Below the pieces are notes generated by a model that did not search any database, was not told the DNA's origin, and was given only the letters and a program-made list of their open reading frames with translations. Positions 15,245 through 25,829 of a DNA stretch of 28,912 bases are shown here, one piece after another. The stretch lies in IMG/VR virus record IMGVR_UViG_3300046002_005253, positions 1 through 28,912 of that record; one strand, written 5' to 3'. The position numbers and the translations under genes are program-made. Numbering within the stretch: position 1 is the first letter of the stretch; every line of letters begins with the position of its first letter. This stretch comes from a virus.

Positions 15245-15745
15245 ATGACCAGAAAATTAGAAGAACTGTTTGACTTACCGCCTACTACAGATGAAATTGA
15301 CACAGCAATTCCTAAACTAGCAGAAAATCGTGTTGCACTAGCAGAGTTAGATGCAACAATAGACAAAGTAGAAGCAGCCCTTCCGCAAGTTAGGGGATTA
15401 GAGTTAGCAGACGAAGAATTTGACAAGTTGTCTAAGTTAGCAGTTGACGGATATAACGATTTGACTACATTAGGTATGCAAGTGGATTCAAGATTTGCAG
15501 CAGAAATTTTTAGCGTGGCATCAAACATGTTGGGGCATGCTATCACAGCAAAAACAGCCAAACTGGACAAAAAACTCCGGATGATCGACCTGCAACTAAA
15601 AAAGATGCGACTAGATCAAACAGCCAAACCAGAAGATGACAGCAACGATGGCACAGTGCAAACAGCACAAGGTGTTGTGCTGAGTCGCAATGATTTGCTG
15701 GAAAGAATTGTGGGTCGTAAAGATCAAAACAGTCAAAAAGAATAA
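15245..15745 (+). CDS. 16: Terminase small subunit, T4 gp16-like
   Basis: The 166-residue protein is short, charged and mostly helical. It starts MTRKLEELFDLPP. A central coiled-coil-like part (about 85-130) reads FAAEIFSVASNMLGHAIT then KLDKKLRMIDLQLKKMRLDQ. A C-terminal tail ends LSRNDLLERIVGRKD. This is the pattern of T4-type small terminases, which oligomerise and stimulate the gp17 motor. T4 gp16 has 164 residues. The large subunit is about 9 kb downstream rather than adjacent, which is unlike T4. Identification rests on length, layout and gene neighbourhood more than on a diagnostic motif. A late-type octamer four bases before the ATG and the lack of a ribosome-binding site suggest a leaderless late message. 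Confidence 0.75.
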   Translation: MTRKLEELFDLPPTTDEIDTAIPKLAENRVALAELDATIDKVEAALPQVRGLELADEEFDKLSKLAVDGYNDLTTLGMQVDSRFAAEIFSVASNMLGHAITAKTAKLDKKLRMIDLQLKKMRLDQTAKPEDDSNDGTVQTAQGVVLSRNDLLERIVGRKDQNSQKE

Positions 15746-15765: not shown

Positions 15766-16374
15766 ATGAAACCATTTGCAAAATACCTAGCTGAAAGTGA
15801 ACGAACCTACAACTATCGCATCAAGATAGCAGGAGATGTCCCATCAGAATTCTTCAAAGAACTTGAAGATAAACTGGCACAGTTTGACGTTGTCAAAATG
15901 TCAAAACCCAAGACAAGTCCAGTTCGTAAAGAAATTCCAGACTTTCCTGCTTTCCCCAATCAAAGCATGACCATTGTGGACGCAGAGTTCAAATACCCTG
16001 CTATCGAACCACAAGTTAAGCAGTTGGCACAGTTGCTGGGCATGGACCCTAATCGTATTATAATGAGCACTACTCCTTATGAAGAAAGCATGGACATTGA
16101 AGCTGACAAGATTGAAAGTCAAAACAAAGATTTGTTAGACGATCCAACATACCCAGCTGACGATGCAACACAACGTGCTCTTAAGAAAGACTATGCTACT
16201 GGTCCTTACGATCATGCTGTGTTGAAAAATGCTTATAAAAGCAACTTTACCATTGCAGGAGCAAAAACTCCACCTGCCAAAACCACAAATGAATTGCCCA
16301 TGGGTGTTAATAGTCCAATGAGCAAGATCAAGCGTCAGCCCAAGCCAGCCACTGGCGCAAACCCAAGAGGATAA
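15766..16374 (+). CDS. Virion-type protein with a putative capsid-targeting N-terminus
   Basis: The 202-residue protein begins MKPFAKYLAESERTYNY. Residues 1-10 resemble the N-terminal capsid-targeting sequences of T4 internal head proteins (short, basic/aromatic, ending Leu/Ile-x-Glu), and L8-A9-E10 fits the T4 prohead-protease site. The middle has YRIKIAGDVPSEFFKELEDKL and a strand/helix pattern. The end is basic and Pro-rich (SPMSKIKRQPKPATGANPRG). It is probably carried into the prohead, but this is inference from the N-terminus and its neighbours with similar starts. AGGA precedes its ATG, and its last codons (CCAAGAGGA) supply the Shine-Dalgarno of the next gene. Confidence 0.8.
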   Translation: MKPFAKYLAESERTYNYRIKIAGDVPSEFFKELEDKLAQFDVVKMSKPKTSPVRKEIPDFPAFPNQSMTIVDAEFKYPAIEPQVKQLAQLLGMDPNRIIMSTTPYEESMDIEADKIESQNKDLLDDPTYPADDATQRALKKDYATGPYDHAVLKNAYKSNFTIAGAKTPPAKTTNELPMGVNSPMSKIKRQPKPATGANPRG

Positions 16375-16380
16375 TTCACT

Positions 16381-18993
16381 ATGTCATTTTTTTACGATCT
16401 AAACAAAAAGCTAGATAGCATTCGTGCTACACCAAGTACCACACACGGTCAACTTAACGAAGGTACACATACTCAACATGCCATGGATTTGAATCCTGAT
16501 ATGGGGCGTCCTCCCAAGCAAGGTATTATGGGCAAGATTGGTTCTGGCATTAAAAAAGTTGCCGATGTACTTGCACCCGGCGATGAAGAATTACTAAAAC
16601 AATTAAAACAAAGTTCTAGCGACAACCGTCGTCCCCCACCAATGGCCAAAGAAGAAGTAGACGAAGGGTTGGGCGACATGGCTCGCGCAGCAGGCAGCGC
16701 CATAGTAGATCGCCTCACTGGCAAACCAACAAAGGCCCAGTATGCTGCGCGGGCTGCTCGTCGGGCAGATAATGTTCACGGTGCTCAGGGCAAGGCCAAT
16801 CGAGATGAAGTCATGCGCCAGGTCGGTGCCCGCGATGATGCAATGGGATATGATGAGAGTCTAGACGAGGTTTATGCTTGGAATCCATCTAACCAATATG
16901 ATCATTACGGTGATGATGCATCACCTGAAGAACACAAAGCATGGAACGACGAGCTAAATCTATATAGGCCAACAGGTGTCGGTTCCGTAACAGCAAGCCA
17001 TGCTGCCATTAGGGGTATGGGCCGCGCTCAGGCTATGAATTCGCGTTTAATCCAAACACTACAAAAAAGAGGAAAACCAGTTCAACAAGCCTATGGTGAA
17101 ACGGCGGCTGGTGCTCCAATGTCTGCCAAACAAAAATCGTTTGCCAAACTAGCACCACCCAAAGATAAAATTACCTTTGCCGACAAGATAGCCGGAGCCA
17201 AAAAAGAAGTGGACGAAATGCTGGGTGACGTTGCTGCTGATGCAATGAAAAAAGCTATCGGTGGCGGCCGTGGGCGTAATTCTAAAATGGACGAAACGCA
17301 AGGTGCTACTACCTACACAGTTGCTTACAAAGATCCTAGCAAGCCGGGCAAGTCGCACAGCACTCAAGTCAAAGCTACCAGCGCAGCAGAAGCAAAAGCA
17401 GCGTTTCAAGATTGGAATCACACAGATCGTTTTGTTTACCTGGGTGCTAGACCTGATGTTGACACAGTTTATGAAACTAACAAAGAAAATGCATTTACAG
17501 CACACAAGCGTCCCCGTGCAGAAACTCCTAAAGTAGGCACAGTCACACACGGTTCCAAGCACGATGTGGAAGAAATTCCTGGCGGTCGTAGAGTTACTCG
17601 TCGTGTTGACAGTGCTGGTATCAGCGTTGGTGCTGATGATGGCCAGAGCAGCAGCGATGCTCCGCGTGGTCGTGGACGTCCAAAGGGTCCTGCTAAGGCA
17701 CCTGAGCGTGTGACTAGCAAAGCCACCAAGCACAAAGATGGCCGCAAGGTCAAAGAAGGTGCTGATCAAGGCCAAACACAACAAATTTACGATGAACTTG
17801 CTGATATTCGTGCAGTAGCAAAGCAAGCACAACGTGGGGGCGAATTCCCACAAGGGTTTGCTAGCCGTTTAGAATCTGTGCTGTATGCAGCAATGACCTT
17901 GATTAAAAATCAACAGCCCGGCAATGCACAAGTTAGTGAAGAAGAAATAGACGAAAAAGCAACTAGCAAGAAGCAACAAAAATTCATGGGCATGGTTCAT
18001 GCTGCACAAAAAGGCGAAAAGCCTGCCAGTGGAGCAGTTGCCAAAGTAGCCAAAGAAATGCCTAAAAAAGCAGCCAAAGACTTTGCTGCAACCAAGCATA
18101 AAGGTCTGCCAGAAAAGAAAAAGCCTGAAGCCAAAGACAAAAAAGAAGAATCTGTAGAAGAAACTTCTGACAACAAACCCGCCAAGAGCTCGGGTGGCTT
18201 CAAGTTTGGCGGCGGAATTTATGATTCTATCAATCGTGATCTTGAAAAAATGATTGCCGAAAGCATGAGCATTAACATGAGCATGAACAACGACGAGCAC
18301 GGTGGTCCAACTCGCAGTCTCACAGTCACAGCAACAGATGACGATGCAATGAAACTGAGTCAACTGTTAAAGAGTGCAGGACTTGGCGGAGGCGATGAAG
18401 GCTACGGTGGTGATGGATACAAACCAGCTTGCAGTTGTGGAACACCTGACTGTTCGTGCGGTGAACAACAAATGCACGAAGTGTCTATGAATCAACCAGA
18501 CTATCCTACCAACACAGAAACCAGCAATGATGCGTTTCAATACAGTGGCGGATTGAACAAGCCCAAGTCAACAGGACAAAGCACAGTGCCTGTATTGGCC
18601 AGTCAAGAAGAACGTCAGTACACACACGAAGGTTCTGATTATGACGAGCTTGCAGACAAAATAGAATACTTAATGACGGTAAAACACAAGACCAAGGACG
18701 AAGCCAGAGAAGTTGCGGCCTACACTCCAGATACCGATAATATCTGGGACGAATACAACCGTGAATCCACTGACGAAGATTCTCTTGCTAGAATGATGGA
18801 AATGGCTGGTGTCAAGAAAAAAGCAGTTGAAGAAGAAAAAACTCAAGAAGGCAACAAGTTCACCAAAGGCCTTGAAGACGACAATGTCAAAGTTGGCGAT
18901 AAAATTCCTGGAACCAATGCTGTTAAGAAAAAAGACATTGACGAAAGCATTTTTGCAATGACTGCAAATCTATGGAAAACCTACAAAGGATAA
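16381..18993 (+). CDS. Large disordered virion-type protein with AT-hook and Cys cluster
   Basis: The 870-residue protein is highly charged, Lys/Glu/Ala-rich and mostly of low complexity. Starting MSFFYDLNKKLDSIRATPS, it has a possible prohead-protease site L25-N26-E27 before Gly28. Others are possible later (SLDE, EIDE, and DIDE just before the C-terminus). Recurrent acidic motifs EEVDEGLGD and KEVDEMLGD occur near residues 95 and 277. An AT-hook, RGRGRPKGP, lies at 429-437, the classic minor-groove DNA-binding core. Four cysteines in CSCGTPDCSCG (684-693) could bind zinc. Such content suits a scaffold-core or internal DNA-condensing head protein cut during maturation. The frame is unbroken; the long opposite-strand frames are shadows. 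Its last codons, AAAGGATAA, form the next gene's ribosome-binding site. Confidence 0.85.
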   Translation: MSFFYDLNKKLDSIRATPSTTHGQLNEGTHTQHAMDLNPDMGRPPKQGIMGKIGSGIKKVADVLAPGDEELLKQLKQSSSDNRRPPPMAKEEVDEGLGDMARAAGSAIVDRLTGKPTKAQYAARAARRADNVHGAQGKANRDEVMRQVGARDDAMGYDESLDEVYAWNPSNQYDHYGDDASPEEHKAWNDELNLYRPTGVGSVTASHAAIRGMGRAQAMNSRLIQTLQKRGKPVQQAYGETAAGAPMSAKQKSFAKLAPPKDKITFADKIAGAKKEVDEMLGDVAADAMKKAIGGGRGRNSKMDETQGATTYTVAYKDPSKPGKSHSTQVKATSAAEAKAAFQDWNHTDRFVYLGARPDVDTVYETNKENAFTAHKRPRAETPKVGTVTHGSKHDVEEIPGGRRVTRRVDSAGISVGADDGQSSSDAPRGRGRPKGPAKAPERVTSKATKHKDGRKVKEGADQGQTQQIYDELADIRAVAKQAQRGGEFPQGFASRLESVLYAAMTLIKNQQPGNAQVSEEEIDEKATSKKQQKFMGMVHAAQKGEKPASGAVAKVAKEMPKKAAKDFAATKHKGLPEKKKPEAKDKKEESVEETSDNKPAKSSGGFKFGGGIYDSINRDLEKMIAESMSINMSMNNDEHGGPTRSLTVTATDDDAMKLSQLLKSAGLGGGDEGYGGDGYKPACSCGTPDCSCGEQQMHEVSMNQPDYPTNTETSNDAFQYSGGLNKPKSTGQSTVPVLASQEERQYTHEGSDYDELADKIEYLMTVKHKTKDEAREVAAYTPDTDNIWDEYNRESTDEDSLARMMEMAGVKKKAVEEEKTQEGNKFTKGLEDDNVKVGDKIPGTNAVKKKDIDESIFAMTANLWKTYKG

Positions 18994-18998
18994 TCATC

Positions 18999-19178
18999 AT
19001 GATGAAACCATATACAGAAATTCAAGCCCAACATGCACGTAATGAAGCCAGTGGATTTGTTCCTCCAGCATTTACTCCAGCAACAGTAAAACAAACACCA
19101 GTAGAAATTCCTGGTGTTATGTATCAAACTGCTAGCTTGTATCAACCGGTTGTTAGTCAACCTGCGGACAAAAAATAA
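18999..19178 (+). CDS. Small virion-cluster protein of unknown function
   Basis: A 59-residue product, MMKPYTEIQAQHARNEASG..., with a Pro/Val/Thr-rich second half. Start at ATG 18999 is favoured because AAAGGA ends eight bases before it; ATG 19002 is equally possible. The first residues (MKPYTEIQ) are similar in style to the capsid-targeting starts of its neighbours, but lack a Leu/Ile-x-Glu site. The stop shares bases with the next start (TAATG). Confidence 0.7.
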   Translation: MMKPYTEIQAQHARNEASGFVPPAFTPATVKQTPVEIPGVMYQTASLYQPVVSQPADKK

Positions 19179-19468
19179 TGGCTACCGTTCATACAAGTCT
19201 TTCAAACGCAACTGTGTCCACAGACAAATTGCAAATCTCCACAGGCAATACAGCAGTGACATGCCAAGTGTATGTTGTGGCTCTAGGCACAGCAACCGCT
19301 GCTGGTAATCTATATTCTGTTCCTATCAATATTCCTGCCAACACAGTGTACGAAACATATTCTGGTACTGGCAACAGGGTTACTATTACAGGTGCAAACT
19401 GGACAGCACTAGAACTTGGAACAGCAAGCTCCGCCACTGAAGGCGTGTACAACTCTGCCGGGCAGTAA
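19178..19468 (+). CDS. Small beta-rich probable structural protein
   Basis: The 96-residue product is rich in Thr, Ala, Gly and Val, with alternating patterns (VTCQVYVVALGT, LYSVPINIPANTVYETYSG, VTITGANWTALELGT). It looks like a single beta-sandwich such as those found in head decoration or tail-tip proteins. The ending EGVYNSAGQ is unremarkable. It overlaps the preceding gene by TAATG and is followed after two bases by the GTG-started gene, so it is within one operon of virion-type proteins. The exact role is unknown. Confidence 0.8.
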   Translation: MATVHTSLSNATVSTDKLQISTGNTAVTCQVYVVALGTATAAGNLYSVPINIPANTVYETYSGTGNRVTITGANWTALELGTASSATEGVYNSAGQ

Positions 19469-19470
19469 CT

Positions 19471-19842
19471 GTGCGAGCTAATGAGTTCATCGCAGAAGCC
19501 CATATTGGCAAGATTAGCAAACGTAATCAAAACGCCACAGTGGGCCTAAACAAGTTTCGTGATCAGAAGTTTGCTGACCGTGTGTATGAACTCAACAGAA
19601 TCATGATGGCTGTGGCATCAACTGATGGCACTTTTGTTCCTGATGTTGATGGCGAATCATGGGCAGGCCGTAACAACGTTGCTGTGCCATACACTCAACA
19701 AGAACAAGACATGCTGACAAAAGCATATCAAGCTGTGGGCAGTCATCACGAAGACTTGAACCACGGTGATTTAAAATCTACAGAACATCCTGCTGTGAAC
19801 ACCACTAGCCCCATGCAATCATTCAGAGGATACCCTCGATGA
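19471..19842 (+). CDS. Putative internal head protein A (MRANEFIAE start)
   Basis: The 123-residue protein starts at GTG 19471 (no ATG is available before the conserved N-terminus). Residues 1-10, MRANEFIAEA, closely resemble the capsid-targeting sequence of T4 internal protein III as I recall it (MKTYQEFIAEA). I7-A8-E9 before Ala10 fits the T4 prohead-protease rule (Leu/Ile-x-Glu, then Ala/Gly). The rest is helical (RVYELNRIMMAVA, EQDMLTKAYQAVG) with a conserved-looking SWAGRNNVAVPYT. It ends SPMQSFRGYPR, nearly the same as the next protein. AGAGGA in these codons is the ribosome-binding site of the next gene, which it overlaps by ATGA. Confidence 0.8.
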   Translation: MRANEFIAEAHIGKISKRNQNATVGLNKFRDQKFADRVYELNRIMMAVASTDGTFVPDVDGESWAGRNNVAVPYTQQEQDMLTKAYQAVGSHHEDLNHGDLKSTEHPAVNTTSPMQSFRGYPR

Positions 19843-20225
19843 GAGCTCAAGAATTTCTTAGTGAGCAACGCGAACTGCCCGATGAAACCAAAGAGCCCCT
19901 GCGTTACACTTATACTTTGCCAGGTCTAAGTTCAGCAGATCCGTACAAGACCTATCGTATGGGAGTGGCTATTGCTCGTGCTCGAAGTGAGTATCGCAAA
20001 GATGATGTGAACCCACATATGCCTGAATGGACAGCCAAAACTGCGTTTGGTGAGCATGCAGTGGTGGCAGGCATGAACTCGGGCATTGGCGAGCTAATAG
20101 ACGCTGCACTACGCATGACCGATACACCAGGTGGAAAAAAACTGGTTTCAACACCAGACAGCACCGAACCCAGCTTTGTAACTACACAAAGCCCAATTAA
20201 AGCATTTAAAGGATATCCAAGATAA
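19839..20225 (+). CDS. Putative internal head protein B (MRAQEFLSE start)
   Basis: The 128-residue protein begins MRAQEFLSEQ, with L7-S8-E9 as a possible prohead-protease site. The start is clearly related to that of the preceding protein. The body differs: YRMGVAIARARSEYR, WTAKTAFGEHAVVAGMNSG and LIDAALRMTDTPGGKKLV. The end SPIKAFKGYPR again matches its neighbour. The two therefore share head and tail but not the middle. It overlaps the upstream gene by ATGA, and its stop TAATG overlaps the start of the 521-residue structural protein. Packaging inside the capsid is inferred from the N-terminus. Confidence 0.8.
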   Translation: MRAQEFLSEQRELPDETKEPLRYTYTLPGLSSADPYKTYRMGVAIARARSEYRKDDVNPHMPEWTAKTAFGEHAVVAGMNSGIGELIDAALRMTDTPGGKKLVSTPDSTEPSFVTTQSPIKAFKGYPR

Positions 20226-23481: not shown

Positions 23482-24252
23482 ATGAATACTTCTTTATTCC
23501 TCAACGACACCCCTCCATACCAGTACAATTATGCCCACAGAGAACGGACTATACATTGGAACGGGACTGATACCTTAGAACTTTATGAAAAAAATATGCA
23601 AAAAAGTTCAACTCATAATTTGTTGCACAAACTAGGCTGGATCGATTCCGTGGTCGAATATTCATACAATAGTCATGGCTACAGATGCAAAGAATTTGAT
23701 AACAGGCCATGTGCTCTGGCATTGGGATGCAGTTTTACTGAAGGAACAGGATTGCATACAGAGCAAACCTGGCCGCATATACTATCTTCTATGTTGGATT
23801 TGACAGTGTGGAATTTAGGCAGCGGTGGAGCCTCAATTGACACTGTGTTTAGAATTCTGGAACACTATATTAACAGATTGAAGCCAACATCTATTTTTCT
23901 TTTGATACCACCTGAATCAAGATTTGAGTATTGTGACATTCACACCGGATTTCCTATAATACAAATTGGATGTCTAGGTCAGCATGACAGCTTTGCCAAA
24001 GAGTGGTTATCCCAACCATTCAATGGCATTTACAACACAAAAAAAACCATGTTTGCCATTGAACAAATATGTGCAAACTATAATATTCCGCTATTTGCAT
24101 GTTCGTCCAAGGGTGCAACTGAAAATCATTCTGGATATGGCCAGGTTGATCTTGCTAGAGATCTTATGCACCCCGGAGAACTTTATCAAAAATACATAGC
24201 TGATGTTATGTATTTGCAACATCAAACAAACATTGAATCTACTAGATCATGA
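23482..24252 (+). CDS. Second SGNH-hydrolase-like protein
   Basis: The 256-residue protein has about 75 N-terminal residues with SYNSHGYRCKEFD, a lead-in seen in some SGNH-like proteins. Then comes ALGCSFTEGTGL with Ser84 (block I), VWNLGSGGASIDTVFRIL (block II) and a C-terminal DLMHPG with Asp227 and His230 (block V). Block III is not standard: LLIPPESRFEY stands where GxN is usual, so the oxyanion Asn may be missing or supplied elsewhere. No signal peptide is present. No clear ribosome-binding site precedes ATG 23482. The base composition is somewhat richer in A and T than the terminase gene. It ends by ATGA overlap with gp17, tying its translation to the packaging motor. Substrate unknown. 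Confidence 0.75.
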   Translation: MNTSLFLNDTPPYQYNYAHRERTIHWNGTDTLELYEKNMQKSSTHNLLHKLGWIDSVVEYSYNSHGYRCKEFDNRPCALALGCSFTEGTGLHTEQTWPHILSSMLDLTVWNLGSGGASIDTVFRILEHYINRLKPTSIFLLIPPESRFEYCDIHTGFPIIQIGCLGQHDSFAKEWLSQPFNGIYNTKKTMFAIEQICANYNIPLFACSSKGATENHSGYGQVDLARDLMHPGELYQKYIADVMYLQHQTNIESTRS

Positions 24253-25829
24253 GCAAAGTTCTCGACACAGTACTGGTCAAAGCACCACATCGAAAAGAAA
24301 CATACACAGAGACCGAACTTGAGGAGTTTGCCAAATGTGCAGATCCCATCAACGGCCCTATGTATTTCTTGAACAACTTCTTTAACATCCAACATCCTGT
24401 CCGGGGCAAGATGCTGTATCATCCTTTTGAATATCAGAAACGACTGATCAACAACTATCATACCAATAGATTTTCAATATCACTAATGCCACGACAAACA
24501 GGTAAAAGTACCAGCGCTGCTGGTTACTTGCTATGGTACGCTATGTTTGTTCCTGATGCGACTATTCTGATAGCAGCACACAAATATCTAGGTGCCCAGG
24601 AGATCATGCAGCGTATTCGTTATGCATACGAGCTGTGCCCTAACCATATCAGAGCAGGCGCCACAAGTTACAACAAAGGATCTCTAGAGTTTGACAACGG
24701 CTCACGTATTGTATCACAAACCACTACTGAAAATACTGGTCGTGGTATGAGTATTACACTGCTGTATCTGGATGAGTTTGCCTTCGTGCGGCCCACAATT
24801 GCCAAGGAGTTTTGGACTTCCATCACGCCAACACTTAGTACTGGTGGTAAAGCTATTATCACAAGTACTCCCAACAGTGACGAAGATCAGTTTGCCTACA
24901 TCTGGAAAGGCGCTCTCAAAACTGAAGATGAATTTGGTAATCAACGAGCCAACGGTCTTGGCATCAATGGCTTCAAAGCGTTTCGTGCATTTTGGCGTGA
25001 GCATCCGGATCGTGATGATGCCTGGGCAGAAGAACAGCGCTCTCAGCTGGGAGATGAACGATTCCGTCGAGAGATGGATTGTGACTTCGTTATCAATGAC
25101 GAAACACTGATCTCTCCACTCAAGCTACTAGAACTAGAAGGCATAGAACCCACTCACAAACTGGGCCAAGTTCGATGGTACAAGCCCATACGCAAGGACA
25201 AGATGTACATTGTTGCTCTAGATCCTAGCTTGGGCACAGGTGGTGACCCCAGTGCTATACAGGTGTTTGAAGCAGACACAACAGAGCAAGTGGCTGAGTG
25301 GCGCCATAACAAAACTGATGTGCCCACGCAGGTCAAAATCCTTGCAGACATTGTAAAAGAGATTCACTCAGTAACCAAGGACAGTAAAAGTGTGTACTAT
25401 TCTGTAGAAAATAATACACTAGGAGAAGCAGCACTGATCAGCATCAACGAATACGGTGAAGAAAACATCCCGGGCTACTTCCTAAGCGACAACAGTGTGC
25501 AAGGCAGCAGCGGGCGCAGGATCCGCAAGGGCTTTACTACCACAAACAAAAGCAAGATTTCTGCTTGCAGCAAGTTAAAAATTCTGATAGAATCTGGGCG
25601 TATGAAAATTTACAGCAAACCCTTGTTGAGTGAGCTCAAGAACTTTGTGGCAAACGGGTCTAGCTATGCTGCCAAACCCGGAGAAACAGACGATCTTGTT
25701 ATGGCCAGCTTGCTTGTAACTCGTATGCTAATGCTGCTGCAAACATATCATTCAGATCTGGACAGTCATATTAGAGATCACTCGGACAACATGATAGAAC
25801 CCATGCCCTTTATCAGTATAATGAGGTGA
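24249..25829 (+). CDS. 17: Terminase large subunit, T4 gp17-like
   Basis: All motor and nuclease motifs are present in 526 residues: Walker A MPRQTGKST (K86), Walker B LLYLDE (D175, E176), coupling motif ITSTPN (204-209), then nuclease acids Asp325 in ALDPSLGTGGD, Glu387 in VENNTLGEA and Asp481-Asp482 in GETDDLV. The protein pumps and cuts concatemeric phage DNA at the portal. T4 gp17 has 610 residues; the copy here is compact at the N-terminus. The gene starts by ATGA overlap with the SGNH-like gene and is separated by about 8.5 kb from gp16. The stop lies within a long-range inverted repeat (25810-25860). Confidence 0.95.
   Translation: MSKVLDTVLVKAPHRKETYTETELEEFAKCADPINGPMYFLNNFFNIQHPVRGKMLYHPFEYQKRLINNYHTNRFSISLMPRQTGKSTSAAGYLLWYAMFVPDATILIAAHKYLGAQEIMQRIRYAYELCPNHIRAGATSYNKGSLEFDNGSRIVSQTTTENTGRGMSITLLYLDEFAFVRPTIAKEFWTSITPTLSTGGKAIITSTPNSDEDQFAYIWKGALKTEDEFGNQRANGLGINGFKAFRAFWREHPDRDDAWAEEQRSQLGDERFRREMDCDFVINDETLISPLKLLELEGIEPTHKLGQVRWYKPIRKDKMYIVALDPSLGTGGDPSAIQVFEADTTEQVAEWRHNKTDVPTQVKILADIVKEIHSVTKDSKSVYYSVENNTLGEAALISINEYGEENIPGYFLSDNSVQGSSGRRIRKGFTTTNKSKISACSKLKILIESGRMKIYSKPLLSELKNFVANGSSYAAKPGETDDLVMASLLVTRMLMLLQTYHSDLDSHIRDHSDNMIEPMPFISIMR

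Follow-up and report, generated by a model that had tools for sequence, protein, structure and literature searches.

Genes and leaders at the locus

The window, by which we mean the whole 28,912-base IMG/VR record IMGVR_UViG_3300046002_005253, derives from a T4-like contractile-tailed phage and carries a tail sheath gene, two tail tube genes, a gp4-like head closure gene, the gp17 terminase gene and several virion protein genes. Among isolates, its terminase is closest to those of the jumbo phages PA5oct, Phosso and Atu_ph07 (50–54% identity); a nucleotide-level search against isolates gave no match. The 166-aa gene at 15245 was considered as the gp16 small terminase, and profile comparison with T4 gp16 gave no support. 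The segment 23482–24252, flanked by a radical SAM gene (22274) and the terminase, may encode a GDSL-like hydrolase (E = 0.004, below the cut-off). The features discussed here are as follows.

15766..16374, + strand: p202, leader MKPFAKYLAE followed by S, then a ferredoxin-like domain; a conserved virion protein near the terminase
15766..15795, + strand: capsid-targeting-like leader of p202, MKPFAKYLAE, from an alignment of 38 homologues
16381..18993, + strand: p870, a modular low-complexity protein of 870 aa with a DUF3008-like stretch at residues 527–580
16381..16461, + strand: 27-residue leader of p870, ending in QLNE (E27) before G, from homologue comparison
18972..19468, + strand: two small ORFs (68 and 96 aa) between p870 and p123, kept in relatives and without the leader
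19471..19842, + strand: p123, 123 aa, GTG start, leader MRANEFIAE followed by A, from the ORF and its homologues
19839..20225, + strand: p128, 128 aa, leader MRAQEFLSE followed by Q, tandem paralogue of p123
24249..25829, + strand: large terminase gp17, a context gene

An earlier note on this DNA had likened the starts of p202, p123 and p128 to the targeting peptide of T4 internal proteins and had pointed out LNE before Gly28 in the 870-aa protein. All three peptides are present as listed, LNE|G occupies residues 25–28 of p870, and the T4 peptide given in the note is correct: ipII and ipIII of NC_000866 start MKTYQEFIAEA. The window starts combine a short N-terminal peptide bearing conserved targeting residues with an L/I-x-E end, as a T4-type leader does.

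Among the 38 p202 homologues, Y7 and E10 are invariant, M1 and K2 nearly so, and L8 and F4 are kept in 37 and 35 sequences, respectively. Mutagenesis of the T4 IPIII leader assigned targeting to residues 4 and 7 and processing to residues 8 and 10 (PMC9026906); these functional residues are the conserved positions of p202. Conservation extends beyond E10, which weakens the leader argument for p202 taken alone. In the AlphaFold2 model the ferredoxin-like domain begins at residue 15 and the leader forms a separate, low-confidence helix at the edge of the body, so that trimming at E10 should, if the model holds, leave the fold intact. Foldseek returned generic ferredoxin-like matches at low TM-score (e.g. 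ribosomal S6), which we do not take as function, and Pfam and PHROGs yielded no function for p202, p123 or p128. The syntenic homologue in PA5oct, gp282, begins MKSFRDYYDA; it retains F4 and Y7, lacks L8 and E10, and carries an ESI-MS/MS flag for detection in virions, a combination that fits docking minus cutting. The Phosso homologue likewise keeps F4 and Y7 and has lost E10. Cleavage of p202 is therefore not universal.

For p870, an L/I-x-E within residues 23–27 is present in every homologue long enough to judge. The spacing upstream of this site varies, the sequence downstream aligns poorly, and the residue after the predicted cut is often Arg. Internal L/I-x-E sites show no overall enrichment (6 vs 4.5 in shuffles), which lends no support to cutting at many L-x-E sites in the manner of gp22, and conservation is seen for the site at residue 27 only. 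The DUF3008-like stretch (window 17959–18120) scores below the Pfam cut-off and also occurs in a hypothetical protein that numerous Synechococcus phages encode.

The proteins p123 and p128 are diverged tandem paralogues: a single profile recovers both, and their bodies alone match at E = 3e-6. A 60-sequence set of this family shows no variation at M1, R2, F6 or E9. The information content is 4.32 bits at Glu9 and just 0.97 bits at residue 10, indels start immediately after E9, and the residue following the glutamate is unconserved. Because the leader motif itself fetched part of this set, the unbiased figures are those for homologues selected without it, by tail sheath and body only. These retain the leader in 14 of 14 cases for p123 and 12 of 12 for p128; the same selection gives 33 of 33 for p202 and every full-length homologue of p870. 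AlphaFold2 models p123 as a small helical protein whose leader is a low-confidence helix at the margin of the fold, and a fold search with p123 gave no convincing match and no effector fold. Neither protein has a match among 50,697 isolate records; p123-like pairs are widespread and syntenic across this phage lineage. Two further features are common to p123 and p128, a conserved C-terminus, SP[VIM]xxF[KR]GYPR, and a conserved S-x-E (residues 103–105 of p123), which may serve as a second signal or be a site of processing.

Leader-like starts and their reuse on unrelated bodies

The frequency of leader-like starts was compared with chance in six long relatives picked solely by tail sheath, using the motif M[KRN]x(1-4)[FYW][ILVM]xE. 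It occurs after 15 of 1088 candidate start codons and after 7 of 8332 internal ATG/GTG codons (p = 6e-10, odds ratio 16.6), the 15 matches being partly non-independent because many are orthologues of window genes. At the internal-codon rate the window would contain 0.04 such starts; 3 are observed (p = 1.2e-5, or p = 9e-4 with the paralogous p123/p128 pair counted once).

A DNA pattern for MRAxEF[ILV]xE was run on IMG/VR (at least 127 matches) and on bacterial genomes (120 matches). The peptide stands at an ORF start in 98 of the 127 viral matches listed vs 5 of the 120 in bacterial genomes (p = 2e-35). The matches listed comprise 100 distinct ORFs, whose bodies fall into at least 25 mutually unrelated clusters (E < 1e-3). 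The leader is common to otherwise unrelated proteins, and within the window p202, p870 and the p123/p128 family likewise have no relation to one another. Leader-bearing bodies include an acetyltransferase (above the Pfam cut-off), DUF6267 and many unknowns. One body (L242) is homologous to PA5oct gp279 (E = 5e-25), an MS-detected virion protein that starts MKLFEVFTLYE followed by D. The bodies of three others (L261, L151 and L227) look ADP-ribosyltransferase-like by eye (FHYTN.., LYHG.. and VYHVT..) and have no Pfam hit. The earlier note's view that the window proteins are unrelated in their bodies to the T4 internal proteins is borne out: tblastn of the window proteins against T4 60–110 kb, the ipI–III region, gave no match at E ≤ 0.1.

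The prohead protease and virion proteins of relatives

Co-occurrence with a gp21-type protease, which the earlier note had proposed as a check, is found among the relatives and not within the window: of 9 long relatives, 8 carry a Peptidase_S77 gene, and none lies in the 28.9-kb fragment. The head genes of the relatives are ordered as in T4, gp20 – small core genes – gp21 – gp22 – gp23, where gp20, gp22 and gp23 are named by T4 synteny and PA5oct annotation. Directly ahead of the conserved start of the presumed mature capsid protein, L-x-E|[NST] occurs in 60 of 60 distinct N-termini. The N-terminus of the protease itself bears an L-x-E of the YLRE type in 10 of 10 genomes, and T4 gp21 carries such a site too, at LIE-9 (PMC9026906). 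Since capsid proteins and protease share L-x-E with the leaders, the leaders end in a site that the protease of this lineage should cut, and it appears that this protease applies an L/I-x-E rule to its capsid protein. PA5oct has two annotated head maturation proteases, gp331 at 84079 and the MS-flagged gp212 at 180349–181020.

Mass spectrometry flags for PA5oct, which are data of others, place the homologue of p202 in virions, together with its neighbours. Around its terminase gene, gp282, gp281 and gp279 are virion proteins; gp281 holds the p870 position, is likened to p870 by position alone, and has no clear L-x-E leader. With a relaxed pattern, leader-like starts occur in 7 of 93 MS-detected proteins vs 5 of 373 other ORFs (p = 0.0034; p = 0.01 with any start codon allowed among the other ORFs). 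The strict aromatic pattern gave 0 of 93 vs 1 of 373, and two looser patterns were also non-significant; because the pattern was loosened after these stricter ones had failed and sequences had been inspected, the enrichment among virion proteins, which is modest, is supportive rather than confirmatory. One of the five leader-like starts without MS detection belongs to the gene in the gp22 scaffold position; the gp22 scaffold of T4 is degraded. Phosso shows no leader enrichment (10 of 1143 starts vs 28 of 3768 internal codons).

Proposed role and lineage-specific tags

The N-terminal peptides of the window proteins are likely to be leaders that target proteins to the capsid as in T4, in a lineage-specific form, and with somewhat less assurance we also favor cleavage at any given leader site. 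Each leader would form a short helix by which its protein attaches to the scaffold core of the prohead. During capsid protein maturation, a gp21-type protease, presumably encoded outside the window, would then cut after the Glu of L/I-x-E, and the trimmed bodies (p870, p123, p128 and probably p202) would remain inside the head or head-neck, some of them perhaps to be injected. On this scheme p202 and p870 are probably permanent parts of the virion or core, and p123 and p128 may be core or injected proteins. The earlier note's likening of the leaders to T4 targeting peptides is supported by the behavior of the leader, namely its body-independent conservation, the shared L-x-E, the protease in relatives and the modest PA5oct enrichment. 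The note's suggestion of new injected effectors fares poorly for p202, which in every relative looks like a conserved component of the virion and is detected in PA5oct virions as a homologue without L8 and E10; p202 is probably a conserved virion part rather than an effector.

A stronger version, in which the leaders are capsid-targeting and p123 and p128 are injected effectors against host defences, as IPI–III are against GmrSD, strikes us as unlikely. Both proteins are small, tandem, fast-diverging and absent from the 50,697 isolate records, and the T4 internal proteins similarly have only the leader in common (PMC12373910). However, the widespread syntenic p123-like pairs are no less compatible with a role in structure or in the core, and the p123 search gave no effector fold. 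Less probable still is that the leader is a docking helix for the neck, portal, tail or packaging machine, normally uncut and with L-x-E as part of its binding face. The position of the genes between the tail tube and gp4 genes and the terminase would suit such a helix, as would the PA5oct and Phosso p202 homologues that keep F4/Y7 and lose E10, and the unconserved residue after E in p123/p128. Yet E9/E10 is invariant wherever the leader is retained, docking alone needs no exact L-x-E of the kind found in the capsid protein and protease, and a single leader is carried by many unrelated bodies. This last observation also bears on the idea that these are ordinary structural proteins whose starts resemble one another through common descent or chance in fast-evolving genes, with no role in transport. 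The N-termini of related proteins should look alike, and p123 and p128 are paralogous, but the three groups of window proteins (p202, p870 and p123/p128) are unrelated to each other, as are the at least 25 bodies that carry the leader. Together with these bodies, the strong start-codon enrichment, both in the relatives and in IMG/VR compared with bacterial genomes, largely refutes that idea, which we regard as very improbable.

Capsid-targeting leaders of this kind resemble those of T4 IPI–III and Alt in being short and N-terminal, with Lys/Arg at position 2, an aromatic residue at 4 and/or 7 and an L/I-x-E end, in their attachment to unrelated bodies, and in the gp21-type protease and T4-like head gene order of the relatives. 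They differ in consensus, which in this lineage takes the form of a 9-residue MRAxEF[IVL]xE, a 10-residue MKxFxxYLxE and the 23–27-residue leader of p870; the bodies are unrelated to those of T4, and processing is here predicted from sequence alone. Head proteins of phiKZ and SPN3US also carry N-terminal propeptides. A gp21-like protease cleaves these after Glu, and they have been proposed to target proteins to the prohead (PMC5694885). The rule in those phages is A/S-x-E, and most of their propeptides are far longer than the window leaders. In the openly licensed literature we found no description of leaders of this sort in environmental T4-like phages. The principle is that of T4, and its lineage-specific form and scale in uncultured T4-like phages are new within that literature.

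In T4, a ten-residue tag can bring a protein into the head and thence into the host. To our knowledge, packaged effectors are mostly unknown beyond the T-even phages. The presence of the tag on at least 25 unrelated proteins of related environmental phages means that it may help to list the proteins that these phages carry into bacteria. A broader reading, which we offer tentatively and put just short of an even chance, is that T4-like and jumbo T4-like phages use lineage-specific tags (MRAxEF[IVL]xE here, M[RK]WxQL[TN]E in Atu_ph07 and MK[IL]x[DE].. in PA5oct) to load changing, unrelated proteins, enzymes included, into the head for delivery, so that the tag alone would enumerate injected effectors. 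Where such a tag can be read, as in these abundant uncultured T4-like phages, the question of which proteins are injected would become a sequence search, testable by virion proteomics of available isolates such as PA5oct and Atu_ph07.

In Atu_ph07, the gene cluster CDS 31–76 includes 29 proteins detected in virions (PMC6102473). The first relaxed pattern, applied across all three virion clusters, was non-significant (p = 0.25). With E allowed at residue 8, a pattern set after the sequences had been inspected, leader-like starts occur in 10 of 50 genes of CDS 31–76 vs 22 of 798 elsewhere (p = 5e-6, a value that overstates independence because nine of these genes lie side by side and are in part paralogous). 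Inside this virion-protein-rich cluster lies a tandem array of eleven genes, gp53–gp63 (NC_042013 39484–50592, − strand; L522:3319–10592), with M[RK][WL]xxL[TNIL]E starts and E at residue 8. Most of the bodies in the array share YRG(M/I)...F(I/F)C(T/S)T...E(V/I)(W/M), which looks by eye like an R-S-E ADP-ribosyltransferase signature, on which Pfam is silent; T4 Alt offers a parallel.
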